Below, one piece after another: positions 4,523 to 30,527 of a DNA stretch of 62,004 nucleotides. Below the pieces are notes generated by a model. That model saw nothing but the letters and a program-made list of their open reading frames with translations, had not been told where the DNA came from and did no database searches. Location of the stretch: assembly GCA_903857795.1 (NCBI GenBank), contig CAIOGM010000090.1, forward strand, positions 1-62,004. The letters run 5' to 3'. The position numbers and the translations under genes were made by a program. Position 1 is the stretch's first letter, and every line of letters begins with the position of its first letter. Origin of the DNA: an uncultured Geobacter sp. (GTDB lineage Bacteria; Desulfobacterota; Desulfuromonadia; Geobacterales; CAIOGM01).

Positions 4523-5446
4523 TTAAACTGAAGTGAGCTCTCTCGACTGACAGGGAATTCGCGTCGGATCAAAACGCCCCCTCCCCCACTCCAGAATCTC
4601 CCGGCAGGGAGCTGCGGCGACTTCCGCCGGCACCGTCTGCCCCAAAAACTCCAGGGAGGCGACGATGAGCCGACCGCCATCTGTTGCCAGATGAAGACCC
4701 TGAGTCAGAGAAACGGCACAATCACGCTTGCTCAGTTTGCTCCCTCCGGAACCGGTGACCAGGGGGAGATGGGCATGGCACGCGGTGGGAAGTCCGAGAA
4801 GGCGCTGGAGATGAATCTGTCGCGGGGTGGAGGAGAGGAGATCCGTTCCACGTACCACCTGAGTCACCCCCATGGCGGCGTCATCCACCACCACGGCAAG
4901 TTGATAGGCAAATGGGCCGTCCTTGCGCCGGACCACGAAATCTCCGCAGGCGTGAAGAAGGTTCTGCCGGTACTCCCCCATGACGGCATCGACAAAGAGA
5001 ATCTCCTCGTCGATGACCCGGAGCCGGAAGGAGCGCGCCCCCCTCCCCTCCTGCAAGCCGTCCCGGCAGACACCCGAATAGGGGGGGCCATCTTCACCGG
5101 GATGGGGGGCCGAGGCGCTCCGGGCCAGATCGGACCGGGAGCAGCCGCAAGGGTAGATCATCCCCTGGTCGCATAACGTCTCGAAAGCAGCCTCGTAGAG
5201 CTCCGTCCGCCTGCTCTGCCAGACCACCTCACCGTCCCACTCCAACCCGAGCCGCTCCAGCGTCCGGAGGATGTCGTCGGCCATCCCCGGGACGACCCGG
5301 GGGAGGTCCAGATCCTCCATCCGGATGAGCCAGCTCCCCCCTGATGCGCGGGCAAAGAGCCAGCTCCCCACCGCCGCCACCAGGGAGCCGAGATGAAGCG
5401 GCCCCGTGGGAGATGGGGCAAAACGGCCCACAGGGAGATGAGTCAC
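4523..5446 (-). CDS. gluQ: Glutamyl-Q tRNA(Asp) synthetase
   Basis: A 307-residue truncated glutamyl-tRNA synthetase. HLGS (18-21) and KLSKR are the class I signature motifs. The Cys cluster around YPCGCSR and YSGVCR is the zinc site typical of GluQ-RS. There is no C-terminal anticodon-binding domain, and the length fits YadB/GluQ. The enzyme activates glutamate and attaches it to the queuosine base of tRNA-Asp, not to the CCA end. It overlaps the ppnP stop by 4 bp (ATGA), so the two are co-transcribed. Some GluX-type synthetases look similar, but the length and missing anticodon domain favour GluQ. Confidence 0.93.
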   Translation of the reverse strand: MTHLPVGRFAPSPTGPLHLGSLVAAVGSWLFARASGGSWLIRMEDLDLPRVVPGMADDILRTLERLGLEWDGEVVWQSRRTELYEAAFETLCDQGMIYPCGCSRSDLARSASAPHPGEDGPPYSGVCRDGLQEGRGARSFRLRVIDEEILFVDAVMGEYRQNLLHACGDFVVRRKDGPFAYQLAVVVDDAAMGVTQVVRGTDLLSSTPRQIHLQRLLGLPTACHAHLPLVTGSGGSKLSKRDCAVSLTQGLHLATDGGRLIVASLEFLGQTVPAEVAAAPCREILEWGRGRFDPTRIPCQSRELTSV

Positions 5447-5757
5447 CCCAGGAACGAGCAGCAGTAGTCAGAGACGGTTGCGACCTTCATGGAGAAGGAG
5501 CTGTTGGCCGGCACTTCGAAGGCTTCACCCCCCACAACCTTACGCCATCCGTTCTCTCCGGCCAGCTGCAGCTCCAGCTCTCCCGCGAGGAGCTCCATCA
5601 GTTCGGCGCTTCCCGTGTTGAACGTATACTCACCCGGCAGCATGATCCCCAGGGTCTTCTTCTCGCCGTTGGGAAAGACGACCGTGCGGCTGGTTACTCC
5701 GCCGTTGAAGTAGACATTCGCTTCCCGCACCACAGTGACATTGTTGAATTCGGACAT
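5443..5757 (-). CDS. ppnP: Pyrimidine/purine nucleoside phosphorylase
   Basis: A 104-residue single-domain cupin of the PpnP (YaiE, DUF1255) family. Visible features are the N-terminal VYFNGGVTSRTV, the beta-rich GIMLPGEYTFNTGSAELMEL, and the C-terminal FEVPANSSFSMKV and DYCCSF. The family phosphorolyses uridine, cytidine, adenosine and guanosine to the base plus ribose-1-phosphate. It is the first gene of a two-gene unit with gluQ, and the ATG follows GGAGAGAG. Nothing in the sequence explains the pairing with gluQ. Confidence 0.9.
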   Translation of the reverse strand: MSEFNNVTVVREANVYFNGGVTSRTVVFPNGEKKTLGIMLPGEYTFNTGSAELMELLAGELELQLAGENGWRKVVGGEAFEVPANSSFSMKVATVSDYCCSFLG

Positions 5758-5787
5758 GACTCTCTCCTTGTGAATATGCCGAAACCC

Positions 5788-5808
5788 CGGAGGTTTTAAA
5801 AACCTCCG
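5788..5808 (-). terminator. Hairpin between htpG and ppnP
   Basis: A 10-bp inverted repeat, CGGAGGTTTT/AAAACCTCCG, almost without a loop, lies between the htpG stop and the ppnP start. The U tract is weak, so this is only a probable terminator or attenuator. Confidence 0.4.
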
Positions 5809-5899
5809 AGGTCTCAGAACGTGCCGGCATAACCACTGCCGGATCTCTATAGTGATGGTTTCCTCGTGCCCGGAGCCCAGCGCCCCGTACCCGGGTTAT

Positions 5900-7834
5900 C
5901 TATTTCGCGGCCCCCACCATCAGCGCGGTGACGAGCTTGGTGAAGTGCAGCGGGTCCTTGAGTGCGGTCCCTTCGGTGAGGAGAGCCTGATCCAGGAGCA
6001 GCTCACAGTAGTCGGCCAACCGGGGATTTTCCTTGTCCGCATCGAAGAGGGAGGAGAGGACGCCGATGAGGGGGTGATCCGGGTTCAGCTCCAGGATCCG
6101 TTTGGATTCGGGCACATCCTGGTTCATGGCCTTGAGAATCCGCTCCATGTTGGCGTTCATCCCGAAGTCGTCGGCCACCAGACAGCAGGCGCTGTCGGTG
6201 AGACGGCCGGAGAAACGGACCTCTTTAACGTTGTCCCCCAGCTTCTCCTTGACGAACTCCAGGAGCCCCTTGTGCTGCTTCTCCTGCTCTTCCTTCTTTG
6301 TCTCCAGCTCCTTCCGCTCGTCCTCGCTCCCCAGCTCCAGATCGCCCCGGTCCACGGCCTTCAGCTTCTTGCCGTCGTACTCGGTAAGAGCCTGAGCGAC
6401 CCATTCGTCCACCGGATCCAGGAGGAAGAGAACCTCGTACCCTTTTTTCCGGAAGATCTCCAGGTGAGGGGAGTTCTCCACCAGCGACCGCGAGGTGCCG
6501 GTGATGAAGTAGAGCTCCGTCTGCCCTTCGGGCATCCGCTCCACGTACTCCTTGAGCGACACAAGTTCGCCCGCCCCCTTGGTGGAGCTCTCGAAGAGCA
6601 CCAGCTCCTGGAGTTTCTCCTTGTTGGCGTGGTCGAAGTGGAGCCCCTCTTTCAGAACCGGTCCGAACTCCTTGAAGAACTTCAGGTACTGCTCGTTTTC
6701 CTTCTCTTTCATCTCCGCCAAGGTGGAGAGGACTTTCCCTACCAGGTTCTTCTCGATCCGCTTGAGCTGCACGTCCTCCTGGAGGACCTCCCGGGAGACG
6801 TTCAGCGGCAGATCGCTGGAGTCCACCACCCCCTTGACGAAGCGGAGGTAGTCGGGGACCAGGTGCTCGCAGTTGTCGGTGATGAAGACCCGCTTGACGT
6901 AGAGCTGTACCCCCTTCTTATGCTCCCGGAAGAAGAGGTCGAAGGGACGGTGGGACGGGAGATAGAGGAGCGCCCGGAACTCGCTGGTCCCCTCGGCGGC
7001 GTAATGGATGGTCTTCAGCGGCTTGTCATAGTCGTGGGAGACATGCTTGTAGAACTCCTCGTACTCCTCCTCGGTGATCTCGCTCTTGGGGCGGGTCCAG
7101 ATCGCCTTCATGGAGTTGAGAGTCTCTTCCTCCACCTTGGTGATCTTCTCGGCCCCCTCGATGGGCTTACCGTCGATCCCCCGGGGCAGCTCCTCGCGGG
7201 TGATGTCCATGGCCACCGGGTACTGGACATAGTCCGAGTACTTCTTGATGATGCCGCGGAGCTTCCATTCGTCCAGATACTCCTTCATCTCCTCCTTGAG
7301 GTGGAGGGTGATCTCGGCCCCGCGGCTCTCCTTGACGCAATCCTCGATGGTGTAACTGCCGTCTCCGGTGGATTCCCAGCGGCAGGCAGACCCCTTGTCA
7401 CCGGCGGTGCGGGTCACGATGGTCACCTTGTCGGCCACCATGAACGACGAATAGAAGCCGACCCCGAACTGGCCGATCAGCTCCGGATTATCCCGGACCT
7501 CCTTGCTCTTCAGATTTTCCAGGTACGCCTTGGTTCCGGAACGGGCGATGGTGCCAATGTTCTCCTCCACCTCGGCCATGGTCATCCCCACCCCGTTGTC
7601 GCTGATGGTGAGAGTTCCGGCCTCCTTGTCGGCGTGCAGCTTGATCTTCCAGTCGCTGTTCCCTTCCAGGAGCGCCTCATTGGAATGAGCCTCGAACCGG
7701 ACCTTGTCGATGGCGTCAGAGGCGTTGGAGATCAGTTCGCGGAGAAAGATGTCCTTGTTGGAGTAGAGGGAGTGGATAACCAGGTCAAGCAGCTGCTGTA
7801 CTTCGGTCTCGAACTTCTTGGTGGCCTTGCTCAT
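5900..7834 (-). CDS. htpG: HSP90-family chaperone
   Basis: A 644-residue cytosolic ATP-dependent chaperone. The N-terminal GHKL ATPase carries [15 protein letters not shown] and GQFGVGFYS. The middle domain has NVSREVLQ and the C-terminus is the dimerisation domain. The length is typical of HtpG. The ATG follows AAGGAG. It is monocistronic or first in a unit, with a good promoter about 45-75 bp upstream. Confidence 0.98.
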
Positions 7835-7879
7835 GGGTGCGGCTCTCCTTGCGGGGATTGGATGTGTGAGTGAGTTTAC

Positions 7880-7908
7880 AGGATAAGTACCGCCAGGGCG
7901 GATTTCAA
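7880..7908 (-). promoter_or_regulatory. htpG promoter
   Basis: On the minus strand, TTGAAA (7903-7908) and TATCCT (7880-7885) are 17 bp apart. The -35 region reads CCCTTGAAA, which also resembles a heat-shock sigma (RpoH) -35 element. The spacer holds the palindrome CCGCC-CT-GGCGG, a possible operator. No CIRCE element is present. Confidence 0.6.
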
Positions 7909-7948
7909 GGGGAACGGGGAATTTTTACCCATTATTACATAACGTCGA

Positions 7949-21482: not shown

Positions 21483-21767
21483 TTAAGAGCCGTTCCGGGT
21501 TTTCCTTCGTAATGCGAACGCCATGACCCCTCCGATTCCCATGCAGAGAAGCGGGAGCGTGGTCGGTTCAGGGACCGAGTAACCGTTGCCTTTTCCGTTG
21601 CCTTTTCCGTTGCCGTTGCCAATTCCGAAACCGTTACCGTTCCCGTTCCCACCGGCTGCGGCGTAGGCCGGGGTTATGGTGTCGACCTGCAACTGCAGCA
21701 AGGGAAAACCCGACAGCGTTAGCAATGATGCCGCGATGACCGTGGAGAGTGCTGTTCTCTTTTTCAT
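21483..21767 (-). CDS. PEP-CTERM protein, Gly/Asn-repeat
   Basis: A 94-residue exported protein. Residues 1-38 are a signal peptide (KKR, hydrophobic core, AYA-A). Residues 39-62 are almost only Gly and Asn with a few Lys, Phe and Ile (GNGNGNGFGIGNGNGKGNG). Residues 65-94 are a classic PEP-CTERM sorting tail: VPEPTT, hydrophobic helix, then RRKTRNGS. After removal of both ends only about 30 residues would remain. ATG 21767 follows GAGGGGG. It lies 122 bp downstream of an exosortase gene, so that enzyme is its likely processor. No homologous mature domain is recognised. Confidence 0.9.
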   Translation of the reverse strand: MKKRTALSTVIAASLLTLSGFPLLQLQVDTITPAYAAAGGNGNGNGFGIGNGNGKGNGKGNGYSVPEPTTLPLLCMGIGGVMAFALRRKTRNGS

Positions 21768-21889
21768 GGTGTCGCCCCCTCTTCTGTGTAGCCTCTCTTC
21801 TGTTTCACCACCTGCTCGTCCGGACAGCAACTACCGACACGACCTGCACTACCTGGGCATTCTGCATCACCTCCATTCTTACGTGAGCG

Positions 21890-22759
21890 TCAGTCATGCG
21901 TCTCAGCATTTTTAGCGATGACCCCCTCCATGCTGAGCAGTCGGATTACACCCCACAGGAGTAACAGCGCAAAGATGAAAAACAGGAAGCCGCCGCTTTT
22001 GTGAAGCCAGCCATCGGCTAAAATTTTTTCGTTGTTGTATACGCCGAGAACGGAGAGGACAAATATTCTGAGACCATTTTTGAAGATGGCGATGGGGATT
22101 ATGGAGAGCATGAGTACGACCCGTTTCCACGGGGTATCGAGAAAGATAAGAGCCGCGAATAAGCCGGTAACGGTCAGGGCGATCGTCGAGTGGATTCCGC
22201 TGCACTGTTCGGCCACGGTGACGTACAAGGTTGGCAGATAAAAAATGAATCCGTCCCTCACATACGGCACACCGGCGATCCTGAACAGGCAATCGGCGCT
22301 ACCGGTAGAGCCGATCCGGAGGAGGAGAATGAGCTTGTCCATCACTGCTACCGGTAGAGGAAACATGAAGATCAGAACAGAGAGCGGTGTAGCAGCCAAC
22401 CGTAGAGCTCTTGTCCCGTGACAGATGATCAAGCCTCCACTCCAGAGGATGACGGCCGCCAGGGATAACAGCGCAAGATGAACACTCTCCTGGAGTGGTC
22501 CGCCGAACTTTCCGAGGAAGAGATACAGTGCAAGAGCCGCGGCAATCACCGGAAGCCCCGACACGGGGAACCACGCCGCTCCCGTGGGGAAGCTGTCTTT
22601 TCTTATGAAGAATAAACAGGCGCTCAATAAGGGAATATATGCAGCGTGTGAGTAGTATTCGCTGTGAAGTGATTTCCCAAGGAACTCATTGAGATGCCAC
22701 ACGTACACTCCATATACGAACAGCCCATACACGAGTAAATAACTATTTTTACCACGCAT
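21890..22759 (-). CDS. Exosortase (PEP-CTERM sorting transpeptidase)
   Basis: A 289-residue polytopic membrane protein with about eight helices. The exosortase catalytic residues are present: C186 in EQCSGIHST, R231 in FKNGLRIF and H253 in WLHKSGG. Exosortases cleave PEP-CTERM tails and probably attach the protein to a surface polymer. ATG 22759 was chosen for the AGGGGG 7 nt upstream; an in-frame start lies 16 codons earlier. Unlike most exosortase loci, no exopolysaccharide cluster or PrsK/PrsR regulators are next to it; its only visible substrate is the next gene. Confidence 0.93.
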   Translation of the reverse strand: MRGKNSYLLVYGLFVYGVYVWHLNEFLGKSLHSEYYSHAAYIPLLSACLFFIRKDSFPTGAAWFPVSGLPVIAAALALYLFLGKFGGPLQESVHLALLSLAAVILWSGGLIICHGTRALRLAATPLSVLIFMFPLPVAVMDKLILLLRIGSTGSADCLFRIAGVPYVRDGFIFYLPTLYVTVAEQCSGIHSTIALTVTGLFAALIFLDTPWKRVVLMLSIIPIAIFKNGLRIFVLSVLGVYNNEKILADGWLHKSGGFLFFIFALLLLWGVIRLLSMEGVIAKNAETHD

Positions 22760-22846
22760 ACCGTGCCCCCTGAGTGTTTGTTCCGCATCGCCTGAGTGAT
22801 TTAGCAAAAAATAAGTATTTTCATGCTATCACCATGTCGTCTGAAG

Positions 22847-23266
22847 TCAACCGTCTGGGGAGACGCTCCCCTTGGAAAGTTCGATCCCTTCGGCCCGTTC
22901 ATCGATACGGACCGCCCGATCGACGTCGGCAGGGCGACCGCTCTTGTCATATCCGCGCCATGAGGTCCGGATGGTGAGAGTCAGCGACGCCGCACCCCGC
23001 TCCCCCTTTACCCGGCAGAAGAACCGGTACGGACCGAGCCGCCTCCCTCCCAGGGGATACTGTCCAGCCAGCCGGAGCTCCGCATCTCCAACCTCGTCGC
23101 AGTCAAGTGACCGCTGGACGACCTTCTCCAGCTCCGGTGTCGCGGCAAGGAGAGGCGTCATCTCCCCCCAGAGCACGCTCCCGCCGGCAGAGGCGGTAGC
23201 CGGGGCAAGCAGCACGAAAAGAGAGAGGAGCATCATCCCCGCTCCGGGGATCATCCGCAGGGTCAT
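22847..23266 (-). CDS. Secreted protein of unknown function
   Basis: A 139-residue protein with a clear signal peptide (hydrophobic core MMLLSLFVLLAPATASA, cleavage after ASA). The mature part has two cysteines (SLDCDEV and RFFCRVKG) that could form a disulfide, and an otherwise polar beta-rich sequence (TLTIRTSWRGYD). I do not recognise a family. Its start overlaps the stop of the upstream double-inhibitor gene by 4 bp, so the two are translationally coupled and probably act in the same compartment. Confidence 0.75.
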   Translation of the reverse strand: MTLRMIPGAGMMLLSLFVLLAPATASAGGSVLWGEMTPLLAATPELEKVVQRSLDCDEVGDAELRLAGQYPLGGRRLGPYRFFCRVKGERGAASLTLTIRTSWRGYDKSGRPADVDRAVRIDERAEGIELSKGSVSPDG

Positions 23267-23925
23267 CGTACCTCCTCCTTGATCATCATGGAACTCTCCG
23301 CCTTGACCGATCCCTGGAAGACGATCTTCTCCCCTTCGGTGAAGGTCCCCTTCCCCTGATGCTCCCAGAAGGTGCGGCTCCCATCGCTGTAACGCGCCCC
23401 CGAGGCCGACACGGCTTGAGGAAGAAGCACCCTACCGCCACCGGGGAGGAGCAGCGAAACCCGCTTCCCCTTGAGATCGAAGGAGGCCGAGAGCTCTGCA
23501 CCGCCGGAATCCTGATAGGTAACCGATACGATCGCCGGATCGGGTGGGCCAACCACGACCTCCACACTGAACGTCTCCAGCGGAGGGAGCTCCTTCTCCC
23601 AGGCGCGGCGGTACTGCAGCTTCAAGCGTGACATTCCGGAAGAGAGGGGAAGAAGACGGAAGGTGTAGCGTCCGCCGGAACCGGTGAGGGTGGAGTCGGG
23701 GAGATAGGCCGGCTCAGGGTCGGGGAGCAGGACAGTTCGGTCCAGATCCGCCACCTCCCAGGCGTACCCGGTTGTCGGGTTGCCGGCCAGGACGATGGTG
23801 ATGGCTTCACCGGCGGGAACGGAGAGTCTGCGGCCGTTGTCCTTCACGGTCAGCTCAAGGGCGCACGTTCCACCCGGCAGGGCAAGCAGCAACATACACA
23901 ACATCCAACGGGAAAGCAGGTTCAT
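23263..23925 (-). CDS. Secreted chagasin (I42)-MliC fusion inhibitor
   Basis: A 220-residue exported protein with two inhibitor-like domains. After a signal peptide (cleavage near TCA-LE), residues about 24-130 match the chagasin/I42 cysteine-protease inhibitor fold, with loop NPTTGYAW (49-56) and a YRRAWEK segment. Residues about 134-215 match MliC, the C-type lysozyme inhibitor, with SASGARYSDG and FWEHQGKG. Usual MliC proteins carry a disulfide; here the domain has no cysteine. Together they could protect the envelope from foreign proteases and lysozyme. I know of no described fusion of these two, but cannot search. Confidence 0.8.
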   Translation of the reverse strand: MNLLSRWMLCMLLLALPGGTCALELTVKDNGRRLSVPAGEAITIVLAGNPTTGYAWEVADLDRTVLLPDPEPAYLPDSTLTGSGGRYTFRLLPLSSGMSRLKLQYRRAWEKELPPLETFSVEVVVGPPDPAIVSVTYQDSGGAELSASFDLKGKRVSLLLPGGGRVLLPQAVSASGARYSDGSRTFWEHQGKGTFTEGEKIVFQGSVKAESSMMIKEEVR

Positions 23926-24186
23926 ATCATACCTCCATCTGTTTAATGACTGCAGAACTTATCCCACGTGGTGCAGTACTGTCAATAGCATGCCCGTGGC
24001 CGGGGAGAATCACCCCTCAAGAGTGGTCGAATAAGCGCTTATAGTTCTTTTCTCAATGCCGAAGAGTATAGAGGATCTCCTTGCGACGACCCTTTTCTTC
24101 TTCCCGCTCTCGCCACAAAGAGTTGTTGTGTAACCCTCAGGCTTGGAGTACAAAAGCTGAAGTTTAGTAACTTACAGGAGGATGTC
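23926..24186. other. Divergent intergenic region before phosphatase operon
   Basis: It separates the minus-strand inhibitor gene from the plus-strand phosphatase operon. An AGGAGG ribosome binding site (24176-24181) serves the first phosphatase gene. I looked for Pho boxes (repeated CTGTNAT) and saw none convincing. No clear -35/-10 pair stands out for the plus strand. Confidence 0.5.
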
Positions 24187-26253
24187 ATGAGTGATGACGC
24201 TTCACGAAAGAGGGAAAAGAGTGAAGAGATGAAGATGGTCCGTGGGCTCTCCCGTCGGGACTTCATCAAATATTCCGGCGGAGCGGTCGCCTGCCTTTAC
24301 CTGGGAACCTTGACCGCCGGCTGCAGCAGTAGCGGTTCCAGCCAGATCACCAGCTACCCTATTGATTCAACTGTGGTCACGACGACAGAGCGGGTGCTCT
24401 CATTCCCGTACACTAAGGTCGCGAATCCTGATACGGCGCTCCTGTCACAGGTTGACAAATACAGTAGCCACACCCCCCCTTACGGTGAGTGGACGTTCAG
24501 CGACGAAGGGCTCCAGATCGTGCCACGGTTCGACCTCATGCCGACTGCTTTTCCCGCAACCGCGGCGTCGCTTGTCAGAATTCGGCAATTCGCCAATTTT
24601 TTCTCCATATCCGATATCCATATCACCGACAAGGAAGCGCCCAACCAGATGATCTACTTTCAGCAGAAAGATCCGACCTACTGCGGGGTAAACACCTCCA
24701 TCTATTCGCCGGTTATAACCTGTACGACCCACGTCCTTGACGCCGCCATTCAGACGGTCAACGCCCTGCACAAGAGAAAACCCTTTACCTTCGGCATCTC
24801 CCTGGGCGACACCTGCAACAATACCTCATACAACGAACTCAGATGGTACCTTGACGTCATCGACGGCAAGGTCATCACGCCGAGTTCCGGTGCTCACTTG
24901 GGTGCAGACACCATCGACTACCAGAGACCGTACCAGGCTGCGGGGCTCGACAAATCGATCCCCTGGTATCAGGCCATGGGCAACCATGATCACTTCTACA
25001 TCGGCTCGGTCCCGGTCTATACCGGTTTTTCACCGAAGGTGCAAAATCCTATTTTTGACCTGGTAACTCCCTACACCAGCGATACCGTCTGGGCAATCGG
25101 GGATCTGCTCATCCCTAATTTACGTCCTCTTGGTGAGGGGGGTACCTTCCCGGCCCTGTTCGATCTGGAAAACATCAAGGGGGCTCCACAGTATTATGCC
25201 GGCGTTCTCGATGGCTTGTCTCCTACCGGCGCGATCATCAATGCGGGAACGAGCACTCCGCCAAAAGTTGCCGCCGACCCCAATCGTCGTCCGCTATTGA
25301 GAACGGAGTGGATCCAGGAATTTTTCACTACGACTACCCTTCCCAAAGGGCACGGCTTTCCTGACTCCTCCAAGCAGGACGGTTTTGCCTGTTACAGTTT
25401 CTTGCCAGACCCGAAGGTGCCGCTCAAGATTATCGTGCTCGACGATACCCAATCGGAAGCCGACGGCTCTCATGACATCCATGGTCATGGCTTTCTCGAC
25501 GCGCAGCGATGGCAATGGCTGCAGGCGGAACTCCAGGCCGGCGATAAAGCCAACCAGTTGATGATCATCGCTGCGCACGTCCCCATCGCGGTGAACTCTA
25601 TCGGGAGTGAGATGGAGTGGTGGGAGTCGGACAAGGATCCCAATGCCACGCTCCAGAACACGGTGAACCTTTTCGACTTGATCAATACGATCCAGAACAC
25701 GACATCGAATCTGATCATGTGGATGGCAGGACATCGTCATTTTAATACCGTCAAGGCTCTGAAACCGATCAAGGGTGAGTTTAAACCCTCTACGACTCCG
25801 TCACCGGTAACGGACAACCCGCCGGAAAGCGGCTTCTGGCAGGTGGAGACCTCATCCTTACGGGATCACCCCCAACAGTTTCGCACCTTCGAAGTATTCC
25901 TCAACAGTGACTATTCCGTTTCCATCGTCACGGTCAATGTGGATCCTGCCGTCGCTCCGGGAACACCGGCAGCGAAATCGCGTTCTTATTCGATCGCTGC
26001 GCAACAGATAATCCAGACCAACTTGCAGGAAAATAATCCAAATCTGACAGAATCAGTCGCTCCATATCCCGTTACCCCGGTCGAGACCATGGACCCGACC
26101 CGGGCTCAGGACAAATCAACGGATCCGACAATCATCTACGGTTCGGTCTATGGCGTTCCCTACTGCGCTTCGTACAATGCGGAACTGTACAAGCAGCTTA
26201 GCCCGGCGATGGTCACCGCTCTGAAAAAGAAGTACCCGTTGCCCACCGCTTGA
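24187..26253 (+). CDS. Tat-exported lipoprotein metallophosphoesterase
   Basis: A 688-residue metallophosphoesterase. The twin-arginine signal is SRRDFIK (R23, R24), then a hydrophobic stretch and lipobox LTAG-C46. The calcineurin-fold metal motifs are in order: SISDIHITD, LGDTCNN, GNHDHF, AAHVPIA and GHRHFN. Long insertions between motifs fit the TIGR03768 (RPA4764) family, whose substrate is unknown. Tat export suggests the enzyme folds with its metals in the cytoplasm. It is the first of four phosphatase lipoprotein genes in the same direction. Confidence 0.9.
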   Translation: MSDDASRKREKSEEMKMVRGLSRRDFIKYSGGAVACLYLGTLTAGCSSSGSSQITSYPIDSTVVTTTERVLSFPYTKVANPDTALLSQVDKYSSHTPPYGEWTFSDEGLQIVPRFDLMPTAFPATAASLVRIRQFANFFSISDIHITDKEAPNQMIYFQQKDPTYCGVNTSIYSPVITCTTHVLDAAIQTVNALHKRKPFTFGISLGDTCNNTSYNELRWYLDVIDGKVITPSSGAHLGADTIDYQRPYQAAGLDKSIPWYQAMGNHDHFYIGSVPVYTGFSPKVQNPIFDLVTPYTSDTVWAIGDLLIPNLRPLGEGGTFPALFDLENIKGAPQYYAGVLDGLSPTGAIINAGTSTPPKVAADPNRRPLLRTEWIQEFFTTTTLPKGHGFPDSSKQDGFACYSFLPDPKVPLKIIVLDDTQSEADGSHDIHGHGFLDAQRWQWLQAELQAGDKANQLMIIAAHVPIAVNSIGSEMEWWESDKDPNATLQNTVNLFDLINTIQNTTSNLIMWMAGHRHFNTVKALKPIKGEFKPSTTPSPVTDNPPESGFWQVETSSLRDHPQQFRTFEVFLNSDYSVSIVTVNVDPAVAPGTPAAKSRSYSIAAQQIIQTNLQENNPNLTESVAPYPVTPVETMDPTRAQDKSTDPTIIYGSVYGVPYCASYNAELYKQLSPAMVTALKKKYPLPTA

Positions 26254-26282
26254 ACTTTTTAACCCTGGACCGGAGGATACTC

Positions 26283-27779
26283 ATGATGAAAAAAAACACC
26301 TCTCTCTTGCTGCTGCTCATCTCCCTTGCCGTGGCGCTGCTTGCCGGCTGCTCTTCGGACAGCACGCAGTCGTCAGTTACCCCACTCAGCGCCGCCAATC
26401 TCAACCTCATCTTCGTAGTCAGTCCGGATGTAGCCTACAGTAGTCTGGGGGACGTGGATCCGGTCACGGCCAACCTCACCAGTCAGGGGTTAAACCGGTC
26501 GCTCCTCATGGCCACTTTCCTGCGGGAGCAGGTGCTGGGATCGAGGAACGTAACCGGCATCTATGCGCTTCAGCCCATGTCCCATCTGCAGATCAACAAC
26601 AGCTTTCCCGACATGAGCGCCCTGGTGAACGTCCAGCAGTTCGCCATGCTCAACCAGATCACCCTGCTTGGCGAGGGGAAGGACCAGCCCCCCTTTACGA
26701 CCGGTTACAGCTACCCGCTCAATGCATCCTACCTGTCCGGGGCGATCCCTGATGGTGTCATAGCGCCGTCCGGATTCTGTCTGGACTGCCAGGGGCTCGT
26801 GTTCGCTGACACGGCAGGGAATAACGCCGCCCTGGCAGCCACGATCATCAAGTCCAATACCCCGGGTTTTCACCTCTTCTCCGCGCCTTGGGAGACGATT
26901 CGCACTCTCCTGGCAGCCATCAATCAGCAACAGGGATACAACCTGACGCTTCCGACGGAGTATGGAGGGGGGAACCGGATCTACGCGCTCTCCATCACCC
27001 CGGCGGGGAAGGCCAGCCTGATAACCTTCGACAGCAAGCTGAACCCGACCGCCACCTATCCGACTGTCCCCGGAATGGCTACGCTGCTGGGGAGCGCCAC
27101 CTGTCCGGACTCAACCACCACGTCGCCTCAAGGTTTCAGCATAACCGTGACCAAGGATACGCCTGGCGCCATCATTCCCCCATCCACGGTTGTCAACCGG
27201 AACGAAACGCTGTACATGATCCGGCACGCGGAAGCTCACCCCACAACCGGTTGGGAGGACGGCAACTATGTGGCCGCCGGGCAATGGCGCGCGCTGGCGC
27301 TGCCCATGGCGCTGCGCGGAAAAATCAGGCCCGATGTGGTCTATTCCGTCGACCCGGCTCAGCTTGTCTCCCCTCCGGGGAGCACCCCGAACTGGTCGTA
27401 CGTACGGCCGTCTCTCACCATCGAACCGTACGTTATCGCCAACAACCTCCCTTTTTATCTGGTTTCCACTCTTGAGCTCTTCCCCGTCACCACTTCAGTC
27501 GCCAACACCCGTGACTATTTCTTCAAGGATCCTCGCTTCTCCGGCAAGACCATCCTGTTGGCCTGGGAGCACGATCATATTCCGTTAATTGTGAAGGCAC
27601 TGCTTGTGACCTATGGGAATCCGACCACCACCCCCACATTGCCCGACACGTGGCCGAGCGGCGACTACGACACCATCTGGACCGTGAAGATCGACAACGA
27701 TGGCAACCTGACGGTGGATAACCTGTCGTGCGAAGGGATCAATTCGGCGCTGCTACCGGCTACGGCGCCACGATTCTGA
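26283..27779 (+). CDS. Lipoprotein with tandem histidine-phosphatase-like domains
   Basis: A 498-residue lipoprotein (lipobox LLAG-C23). The C-terminal half has the histidine phosphatase signature YMIRHAEAHP (R314, H315) and a second His region WEHDHIP. The N-terminal half appears to be a diverged copy: NLIFVVSPD stands where the RHG motif should be, then GLNRSLLMATFLREQVLG matches the helix after it. So one half seems inactive. ATG 26283 (or 26286) follows GGAGG 6 nt upstream. It lies 29 bp after the Tat phosphoesterase stop. The substrate is unknown. Confidence 0.8.
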   Translation: MMKKNTSLLLLLISLAVALLAGCSSDSTQSSVTPLSAANLNLIFVVSPDVAYSSLGDVDPVTANLTSQGLNRSLLMATFLREQVLGSRNVTGIYALQPMSHLQINNSFPDMSALVNVQQFAMLNQITLLGEGKDQPPFTTGYSYPLNASYLSGAIPDGVIAPSGFCLDCQGLVFADTAGNNAALAATIIKSNTPGFHLFSAPWETIRTLLAAINQQQGYNLTLPTEYGGGNRIYALSITPAGKASLITFDSKLNPTATYPTVPGMATLLGSATCPDSTTTSPQGFSITVTKDTPGAIIPPSTVVNRNETLYMIRHAEAHPTTGWEDGNYVAAGQWRALALPMALRGKIRPDVVYSVDPAQLVSPPGSTPNWSYVRPSLTIEPYVIANNLPFYLVSTLELFPVTTSVANTRDYFFKDPRFSGKTILLAWEHDHIPLIVKALLVTYGNPTTTPTLPDTWPSGDYDTIWTVKIDNDGNLTVDNLSCEGINSALLPATAPRF

Positions 27780-27845
27780 GCCGCTTCCGAGGCTGACGGA
27801 GGGAGTGCCACGTTGTTGAGGCTCATCAAAAAGGAGAAGTAACTC

Positions 27846-29303
27846 ATGGTGAAAGCTGCGCGTTGTACCCTGTTTCTTCTTATGGTAACCATCTCTCTGT
27901 TCTGCGGCTGCAGCAGCGATTCCGGCGCCCCCGCCGGCAACAGCTTCTCCGCGGTTGTTTTCTCGGACATTCACTTCAACCCGTTTTATGACCCGACTCT
28001 TTTCACCGCGCTTAACTCTTCAGCGGTGGAGCTGTGGCCGGATATTTTTAAAGGTTCGAGCGTGCAATCAGTTTCGGTAAGGGGGAGCGACACCAATTAC
28101 CCTTCTCTGGTCATGGCGCTCTCCGGCATAAAACAGAATGCGGGAACTGCTTCGCTCATTATTTTCACCGGCGACATGCTCGGGCACAGCCTGACGGAAA
28201 CATTTTATAAAAATTATGCGAAAGATCCTACTCATCCGACTCCTGAAGACGTTGTCGCAATGAAGGCTTTTACCGACAAGATAGTCGCCTTTATCATGAA
28301 TCAGATCAGATTGTCGGTGGGAAGCATTCCGGTCATGTTCGCTATCGGGAACAGTGATTCGTATTCACTCATAGACGATGGCGCGAACAAGAGTTTCCGT
28401 GAGAATACGGCCGGTTATTTTTACACGAAATTTTTAAATAGCACCGTGGATCAGCAGACGTTTCTTTCCACCTTCAAGAGTGGAGGATATTATTCAGCGG
28501 AACCAGCCGGCACAAATCTGGTGGTTATCGGACTCGATACCGTTCCGTTTACCAACAACTTACAAAATACTCAGGCAACGGATGAGCTCACCTGGCTTGA
28601 GACGAAAGTGGCCGCAGCCAAAGCCGGCGGCAAAAAAGTCTGGCTCCTGATGCACGTGCCTCCCGGGGCTAACATCGACGGAGCGGCAAGTTCGGTCGAT
28701 GTCAACGGTCACAGCACCACGACACCCGCTTCAATGATGTGGGACACCTCGTCGAACTACCAGGAACGCTTCCTTACCATATTTGCGGCCAATCCGGGCG
28801 TAATAACCCTGACCCTTGCCGCGCATACCCATATGGACGAATTCCGCGTCATGACATCGTCCGATGTGCTCGAAATAACCCCCGGAATAACCCCGTACTT
28901 CGGCAACAACCCCGCATTCAAAGTGTTTACTTTTGCCAAAGAGAGCTTGAAACCGACAGATTATCGCTCCGTCTATTATGACCTTGGCTCAATGCCTGAT
29001 ACGTTCAATGATTACTATACTTTTTCGCATAGATACGCCATGCAAGGTCCTTCTTTGAATGACTCTTTGATCAGCGTATCCAATGCTTTTGACACAAACA
29101 ATTTCTACAAGAGTGCATACGCAATTGGATACAATTCCGGCAACAGTTCCTTGACTCCGGATCCGTATTCAAACACGCATTCATACACCCCGGTTATCAC
29201 GCAGCCGAGCCAAGTGACACCTTACATGAACTGGCCCGTCTTTTCCTGTGGCGCAAAGTTCATAAACCAGACAGATTTTTATAATTGCGTCAAGCCGCAG
29301 TGA
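27846..29303 (+). CDS. Lipoprotein metallophosphoesterase, sphingomyelinase-like
   Basis: A 485-residue calcineurin-fold phosphoesterase with lipobox LFCG-C22. The metal motifs are FSDIHFNP, FTGDMLGH, AIGNSDSY, LMHVPPG and AAHTHMDE. The DIHFNP start, the GNSD variant and the AHTHMDEF end resemble the acid sphingomyelinase/SMPDL3 branch, which also cleaves phosphodiesters or nucleotides. The C-terminal 100 residues include a Cys pair (FSCG, YNCV). The coding sequence is visibly AT-richer than the core genes. AAGGAG precedes the ATG; the gap to the gene before is 66 bp. Confidence 0.85.
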   Translation: MVKAARCTLFLLMVTISLFCGCSSDSGAPAGNSFSAVVFSDIHFNPFYDPTLFTALNSSAVELWPDIFKGSSVQSVSVRGSDTNYPSLVMALSGIKQNAGTASLIIFTGDMLGHSLTETFYKNYAKDPTHPTPEDVVAMKAFTDKIVAFIMNQIRLSVGSIPVMFAIGNSDSYSLIDDGANKSFRENTAGYFYTKFLNSTVDQQTFLSTFKSGGYYSAEPAGTNLVVIGLDTVPFTNNLQNTQATDELTWLETKVAAAKAGGKKVWLLMHVPPGANIDGAASSVDVNGHSTTTPASMMWDTSSNYQERFLTIFAANPGVITLTLAAHTHMDEFRVMTSSDVLEITPGITPYFGNNPAFKVFTFAKESLKPTDYRSVYYDLGSMPDTFNDYYTFSHRYAMQGPSLNDSLISVSNAFDTNNFYKSAYAIGYNSGNSSLTPDPYSNTHSYTPVITQPSQVTPYMNWPVFSCGAKFINQTDFYNCVKPQ

Positions 29304-29332
29304 TATCTATCCAGCAAGGAGAGACCATAAAA

Positions 29333-30460
29333 ATGCAAAAAAACATCACAAGACTTTTTATGCTCGCCATGTCGGTACTCATCTTCAACGGTTGTGGAGG
29401 CGGCGACAGTTCGACTGACCCTGTGGCGAAGAGTTTAATCGTCATGGGGGATCTCCAGGTCCCCCTTGCGACCATCTCTTCCAGCAGCACCACCAATGTT
29501 CCACAACTCCGACAGAATGTAGCAGACATCGCGACCCTGCCGCAGAAGCCGGATTACAGTTTTGTCCTGGGTGATTTGGTCGCGGCGGAACCGATGCCTG
29601 CAGATCAAGGGAACTCTTTAACGTCGGAACTTAACGCCTGGATTGGACTGTTTCATACTATTCCGAACAGTGACGCCATCAACCTCGTCCCCTTCCCTGG
29701 GAACCATGAGATGAACCTTATCGTCACGCCAACGCCTGACTCGAAAACCTGGTTTGAGACACCTGATTCATATTCCTACTCCACCTGGAGGAGCTGGACC
29801 GCAACTAATCTATTATTTCCCTTTACGGCAAATGGCCCCCAACCGACGAGCACCAATCCGGACATGCTGGTCAAAGATGAAAGCCAATTCTCGTTTTCAT
29901 TTAACTGGGGCGCCGTGCATATCGTGGTCATCAATACGGATACCTTGTCCACGGCCACGGATCCCGCGACCAACCAGCCCTACGCCGGCTGGATTCCGTA
30001 CAATTGGATCGCTGCCGATCTGGCTGCGGCTCAAAATGATCCGAAGATCAGCACCATCCTGGTCATGGGACATCGTCCCATCGAACCACCGGCGTTCGAT
30101 ACCTCAACCGAGGAACCGACCATATTGAATAAACCCTACCCGCTGGCGAACGCACTCGCGGCCTTGCTGCAGCAGACACCGAAGGTCAAAGCTTATTTTT
30201 GCAGCCACGTGCACGCCTTCACCGCCTTCAAGCTGACGGCTGCGCCACGCATTTGGCAGGTTGTTTCGGGGAACGGTGGCGCACTTCCCTATGTAAACTG
30301 GTTGCCGACAGAAAACCAATATTTCGGGTTCGCCGAGGTGCGTGTGCATCAGAGCGGTCGGCTTACGGTTGCAGCGTACGGCCGGGCGATTCCAACTCCT
30401 TACTATGGTGACACTCCAGTAGCTCCAGCGGTCCTCAAGAAGGTGATCACCCTGGAGTAA
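29333..30460 (+). CDS. Lipoprotein metallophosphoesterase, purple-phosphatase-like
   Basis: A 375-residue lipoprotein (lipobox IFNG-C21, then GGG). The calcineurin-fold motifs are VMGDLQVP (degenerate first motif), VLGDLVA, PGNHEMN, VMGHRPIE and CSHVHAF. It is closest in layout to small secreted metallophosphoesterases of the purple acid phosphatase-like type. The first motif reads GDLQ rather than DxH, so one metal ligand is replaced and activity should be tested. ATG 29333 follows AAGGAG at 12 nt. It is last in the operon and is followed by a strong terminator. Confidence 0.82.
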   Translation: MQKNITRLFMLAMSVLIFNGCGGGDSSTDPVAKSLIVMGDLQVPLATISSSSTTNVPQLRQNVADIATLPQKPDYSFVLGDLVAAEPMPADQGNSLTSELNAWIGLFHTIPNSDAINLVPFPGNHEMNLIVTPTPDSKTWFETPDSYSYSTWRSWTATNLLFPFTANGPQPTSTNPDMLVKDESQFSFSFNWGAVHIVVINTDTLSTATDPATNQPYAGWIPYNWIAADLAAAQNDPKISTILVMGHRPIEPPAFDTSTEEPTILNKPYPLANALAALLQQTPKVKAYFCSHVHAFTAFKLTAAPRIWQVVSGNGGALPYVNWLPTENQYFGFAEVRVHQSGRLTVAAYGRAIPTPYYGDTPVAPAVLKKVITLE

Positions 30461-30492: not shown

Positions 30493-30527
30493 GCCCGTCT
30501 ATCTCTCACCGGATAGGCGGGCTTTTT
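30493..30527 (+). terminator. Rho-independent terminator of the phosphatase operon
   Basis: An 11-bp stem GCCCGTCTATC/GATAGGCGGGC (one G-T pair) with an 8-nt loop is followed directly by TTTTT. This is the clearest terminator in the window. Confidence 0.93.

Follow-up and report, generated by a model that had tools for sequence, protein, structure and literature searches.

Organization of the Locus

Four co-directional genes, g1 to g4, lie at 24187-30460 on the plus strand of the window, the whole stretch of 62,004 nucleotides from an uncultured Geobacter sp. that was analysed. The first, g1 (24187..26253), encodes a Tat-exported lipoprotein metallophosphoesterase of the TIGR03768 family (688 aa, lipobox Cys46). 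It is followed by g2 (26283..27779), encoding a lipoprotein with two tandem histidine-phosphatase folds (498 aa, Cys23), by g3 (27846..29303), encoding a predicted lipoprotein phosphodiesterase of the acid-sphingomyelinase/SMPDL3 type (485 aa, Cys22), and by g4 (29333..30460), encoding a probable lipoprotein metallophosphoesterase with a GNHE motif (375 aa, Cys21). An earlier, sequence-only reading had described four plus-strand open reading frames with gaps of 29, 66 and 29 bp and cysteines at these four residues, and both descriptions are correct when the ATG at 26283 is taken as the start of g2 and the ATG at 29333 as that of g4. A Shine-Dalgarno-like AGGAG or GGAGG lies 5' of every start. 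The terminator that had been said to close the unit was recovered 3' of g4 (30493..30522, plus strand) as a hairpin with a 12-bp GC-rich stem, a 6-nt loop and a T-run (dG -21.3 kcal/mol, z = -6.2 against shuffles), and the terminator scan gave no terminator-like match inside the intergenic gaps of g1-g4. We infer that the four genes are co-transcribed.

The residue after the lipobox-type Cys is Ser or Gly in all four proteins and never Asp, in agreement with the earlier reading, and their placement in the outer membrane is probable. This Cys is kept in 23/23 homologues of g1, 43/50 of g2 and 22/24 of g3, so that lipidation is a family trait of these three. The lipobox of g4 (F-N-G-C) is non-canonical, being weak at -2, and that of g3 has F at -3.

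The 261-bp divergent intergenic region upstream of g1 (23926..24186, given on the plus strand) was searched for regulatory elements. With a Pho box model of two CTGTCAT-like half-sites 11 bp apart, the best match was 9/14, a value that shuffled sequence reaches as its best more often than any other; the consensus is that of E. coli, and a divergent box could escape it. The earlier statement that no Pho box is visible therefore holds for this consensus, none being found above shuffled expectation. The pstS loci of the same genome yielded no usable alternative Pho motif. No sigma-70-like promoter was found on the plus strand of the region, and the one match on the minus strand was near chance.

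Further along the minus strand, at 21483-22807, a gene for a 115-aa PEP-CTERM protein lies directly 3' of an exosortase gene (PF09721, E=2.3e-44). The exosortase passed the cut-off of no specific exosortase model. The two are possibly a dedicated one-target exosortase pair.

Protein Families of the Four Products

The sequence-only reading had assigned the four phosphatases to three branches. They do fall into four families, but three of the four are metallophosphoesterases and one is a histidine phosphatase, which makes only two superfamilies.

The g1 protein matches TIGR03768 with 798 bits against a cut-off of 387 (E=3e-240), covering positions 3-547 of the 547-position profile. This family (RPA4764 family metallophosphoesterase, an NCBIfam hypoth_equivalog) shares with g1 the Tat signal and the metal-binding residues, and the score is twice the cut-off. 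The calcineurin-type metal-binding motifs DxH, GD, GNHD, H and GHxH are all present; D143, H145, D208, H267, D268, H464, H516 and H518 are invariant in 23 homologues, and N266 is found in 22 of the 23. No solved structure was matched by the g1 profile in sequence searches. TIGR03768 is without a described function and is named in no paper of the open-licence literature that was searched; its association with g2 and g3 was likewise not found described. A second, divergent TIGR03768-like lipoprotein gene is present in the same genome (G000:C132:6386-7948, locus L085), where it adjoins genes for an M23 peptidase and a DUF1329 protein.

No Pfam or NCBIfam family was matched by g2, and its profile matched no PDB structure by sequence. 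An AlphaFold model built with 50 homologues (pLDDT 87) has two tandem histidine-phosphatase folds. In model comparisons, residues 30-254 gave Z scores of 13.7 to Rv2985/MutT1 and 12.3 to SixA, and residues 298-492 gave 11.6 to PGAM5. The C-terminal domain carries the RHxE motif (R314-H315-x-E317) and a second His, H430. R314 and H315 are invariant in the 50 homologues. In the N-terminal domain, S47-P48-D49 replaces RH and P202-W203-E204 stands where the second His is expected, so that by alignment and model positions this domain is without both the catalytic RH motif and the second His; D49, R72 and H101 are nevertheless invariant among homologues. The earlier description of g2 as a double-domain histidine phosphatase was thus right for the fold, but the N-terminal domain is without the catalytic residues, and judging from the model g2 is apparently a tandem of one catalytic and one degenerate domain. 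Both halves share the fold of the histidine phosphatase superfamily (MutT1 C-terminal domain, SixA, PGAM5, PhoE), and the C-terminal half carries RHxE and a second His. Unlike these proteins, g2 has the domain in tandem within a single chain, with the N-terminal copy degenerate, is lipid-anchored and belongs to no existing Pfam or NCBIfam family.

At residue 430 of the g2 alignment, about half of the family swaps the presumed second catalytic His (WEH), mostly to Ser (WES). With His kept in just 25 of the 50 relatives, part of the family may have no activity, and the alignment suggests that the WEH/WES split could separate two functional subfamilies.

The claim that g3 is sphingomyelinase-like was borne out by a profile match to the catalytic domain of SMPDL3A/acid sphingomyelinase (5ebe, E=2.5e-23). 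All metal-binding motif residues are present in g3 and are invariant among its homologues. The catalytic motifs are intact in g1 and g3, and apparently so in the C-terminal domain of g2. True acid sphingomyelinase has a saposin domain as one of its features; none was found in g3, whose sole Pfam match is Metallophos (37-329). Among acid sphingomyelinase, SMPDL3A-B and the bacterial RsASML, with which g3 shares the catalytic domain by profile and the metal-binding residues, g3 is thus set apart by the lack of a detectable saposin domain and by its lipid anchor. RsASML is presumably the nearest characterised bacterial protein to g3 known to us. It converts ATP to AMP and does not cleave sphingomyelin (PMC4140839).

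The assignment of g4 as a purple-phosphatase-like metallophosphoesterase stood in part: the Pfam Metallophos match (E=1e-8) supports a metallophosphoesterase, but the purple label was not secured, with Metallophos_C, the PAP-type C-terminal domain, scoring 16.1 bits under a cut-off of 23. The single-sequence AlphaFold model of g4 had a pLDDT of 36. Among 97 Geobacterales genomes no close relative of g4 was found, only weak partial matches at 28-35% identity, and at E<=1e-12 there was none in 198 phylum-wide genomes besides the window's own. At another locus (L144:11558-12658) a lipoprotein metallophosphoesterase of similar size, remotely similar to g4, lies between g2 and g1.

Co-Occurrence and Clustering of g1, g2, and g3

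The distribution of the families was determined in the genome itself and its same-order relatives (97 Geobacterales genomes in all), counting substantial matches only. Homologues were found in 22 genomes for g1, 15 for g2 and 20 for g3, one of the g2 calls (G096) being a weak fragment that adjoins g3. Depending on the pair, two of the three coincide in 12-14 genomes, and 10 genomes have all of them, with pairwise Fisher p values of 6e-8 to 3e-7 that ignore relatedness. The co-occurrence that the sequence-only reading had proposed to look for was therefore recovered for g1, g2 and g3 (p ~1e-7 per pair), which are also re-clustered across phyla, but not for all four families, since g4 is outside the conserved set.

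A scan of genome contigs gave 78 g2 loci, in records labelled as Desulfobacterota-type bacteria, Acidobacteria, Nitrospirae, Proteobacteria, Chloroflexi and others. A same-strand g3 lies within 400 bp of g2 at 25 of the 78 loci, and a g1 at 12. The orders g3-g2, g2-g3, g1-g2-g3 and g3-g2-g1 were all observed, as were duplications; Geotalea sp. SG265 is one carrier of the order g3-g2-g1. In one MAG (L138), g2 and g3 are naturally fused in a single frame of 945 aa (5074-7911) with a Pro-rich linker; its single signal region is N-terminal, and a second signal peptide is absent. In a phylogeny of 50 g2 proteins, the state of lying next to g3 has to change 11 times, at least 8 of them on strongly supported branches, so the g2-g3 association was repeatedly lost or formed anew. 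Co-occurrence, shuffled orders across phyla and the fusion support a functional linkage of g1, g2 and g3. No paper on such a cluster was found in the open-licence literature, and both the recurring association and the tandem histidine-phosphatase family appear to be undescribed in what of that literature can be searched.

Each of the three also occurs alone among the 97 genomes (g1 in 6, g3 in 4, g2 in 1), so they are exchangeable modules and not an obligate pathway. An obligate four-gene pathway was rejected on this ground. Genomes with a single one of the genes were the refuting condition that the earlier reading had set itself; given these and the lack of conservation of g4, its suggestion of an ordered, stepwise breakdown of one complex phosphate ester is not supported.

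Neighbouring Genes at Other Loci

The g2 directons elsewhere contain genes for PF04185 phosphoesterases with a lactonase propeller, metallophosphoesterases, GDPD, phospholipase B and a PLD-like lipoprotein, and also for HAD phosphatases, secretory lipases, DUF3089 hydrolases and choloylglycine hydrolases. Exported phospho- or lipid-hydrolase families account for at least 26 of 102 g2 directon neighbours, compared with 2 of 53 control genes at these loci, among the families listed (p = 4e-4); the scan used simple ORF calls, the 56 neighbours scanned were picked by hand from the 102 and only the top 25 families were counted, in the control likewise, so that 26/102 is a conservative lower bound. 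No phosphate transporter was seen in the directons covered by these partial scans. A 5'-nucleotidase-like metallophosphoesterase and a PF13350 phosphatase occur near g1 or g3, and nucleotide catabolism is represented among the neighbours by PreA, a thymidine/AMP-phosphorylase-like protein, a 5'-deoxyadenosine-deaminase-like amidohydrolase and a nucleoside transporter. Genes of two-component systems are often found close to the clusters. Genes for PreA, a dihydropyrimidine dehydrogenase subunit, recur beside g1, g2 or g3 clusters (L068, L073/L118, L078), and three genomes (L081, L084, L113) have genes for a CstA-like carbon starvation transporter adjoining or close to g1 or g2.

Base Composition and Transfer

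The earlier reading had taken the AT-richness of the operon as a sign of transfer. The GC3 values of g1 to g4 are 0.67, 0.76, 0.59 and 0.62, and most well-annotated neighbours have about 0.75-0.90; the AT-richness is real but uneven. A clean block transfer of the four genes is unlikely with GC3 so uneven among them, and the differences rather suggest that the operon was assembled piecewise in this genome. Transfer as such is supported for the g2 family: on the tree, the g2 proteins of Geobacterales fall into several well-supported clades together with those of other phyla, and on this phylogenetic ground horizontal transfer of the family is likely. The g2 of the window forms a long lone branch on the tree. 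Both g2 and g3 are absent from the three genomes of the same genus.

Proposed Function and Alternatives

We propose, with a probability of roughly 0.6, that the operon encodes lipid-anchored, envelope-exposed phosphoester hydrolases that scavenge phosphate together with organic moieties, and that its genes are interchangeable parts of an exo-hydrolase cluster that recurs and moves horizontally. The sources would be extracellular organophosphates such as nucleotides, phospholipid head groups and other necromass. By analogy with RsASML acting on ATP, g3 may cleave phosphodiester or phosphoanhydride bonds, and the C-terminal domain of g2, g1 and g4 would take off the remaining phosphomonoesters, with g1, g2 and g3 probably serving as swappable modules and not as steps of one fixed pathway. 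The neighbouring genes make surface localisation and the breakdown of phospholipids and nucleotides plausible; the substrates and physiological role of g1-g4 are put forward here as the probable ones. Points against the proposal are the lack of a Pho box and of a phosphate transporter, each within the scope of the searches above, the loss of the second catalytic His in half of the g2 homologues, the lack of conservation of g4 with the other three, and the genomes in which g1, g2 or g3 stands alone.

Secreted phosphatases are well known, and those of the Pho regulon are exported phosphomonoesterases and diesterases that scavenge organic phosphate. The proposed system would resemble them in this respect, but here no Pho box was found, four families share one operon, the enzymes are cell-anchored lipoproteins and modules are widely exchanged between genomes. 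In a more far-reaching version, offered tentatively and against which we would lean, g1-g2-g3 could be a mobile surface exo-phosphohydrolase system built around the new tandem histidine phosphatases, acting, as the g2-g3 fusion would suggest, as a complex on phosphodiesters and monoesters of necromass nucleotides or lipids in anaerobes and soil bacteria belonging to several phyla.

The missing Pho box would fit carbon scavenging from lipids and nucleosides in place of phosphate acquisition, with the phosphatases serving only to make uncharged molecules that the cell can take up and catabolise. Lipases, phospholipase B, choloylglycine hydrolases, thiolase, PreA, the nucleoside transporter, the thymidine/AMP-phosphorylase-like protein and CstA at other loci point the same way. 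The commonest partners of g2, however, are the phosphatases g3 and g1 and not transporters or catabolic enzymes, and we consider this explanation rather unlikely. An action on the cell's own lipids, on lipid A or on exopolysaccharide phosphates, in envelope maintenance or signalling, is quite improbable. Lipoprotein anchors would hold the enzymes at the cell surface, two-component genes are frequent near the clusters and the exosortase/PEP-CTERM system adjoins on the opposite strand, but the exosortase genes are divergent and were not seen as recurrent neighbours, and the patchy distribution and strong horizontal transfer would be unusual for housekeeping envelope enzymes. That unrelated lipoprotein genes have merely gathered in an AT-rich spot without a joint function is consistent with the GC3 spread of 0.59-0.76 and with the lack of any conserved association of g4, but is very improbable for g1-g3, which come together again in different phyla, in more than one order and also as a fusion.

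TIGR03768 and a previously unrecognised tandem histidine-phosphatase family thereby gain a common genomic setting and a role that can be tested, which would concern how metal- and sulfate-reducing bacteria and peat acidobacteria turn over organic phosphorus. With the g2-g3 fusion at hand, the functional link can be put to a direct test. More speculatively, surface phosphatases of Geobacter relatives could bear on the formation of uranium-phosphate minerals.

Divergent from the operon, at 23263-23925 on the minus strand, a single protein contains both a peptidase inhibitor of the chagasin family (I42) and an MliC-type lysozyme-inhibitor domain. At a g2/g3 locus of another genome (G087, L073:12836-13963), an I42 chagasin domain is fused to an alpha/beta hydrolase, and its gene belongs to the same run as g2/g3 and a 1007-aa lactonase-phosphoesterase lipoprotein.
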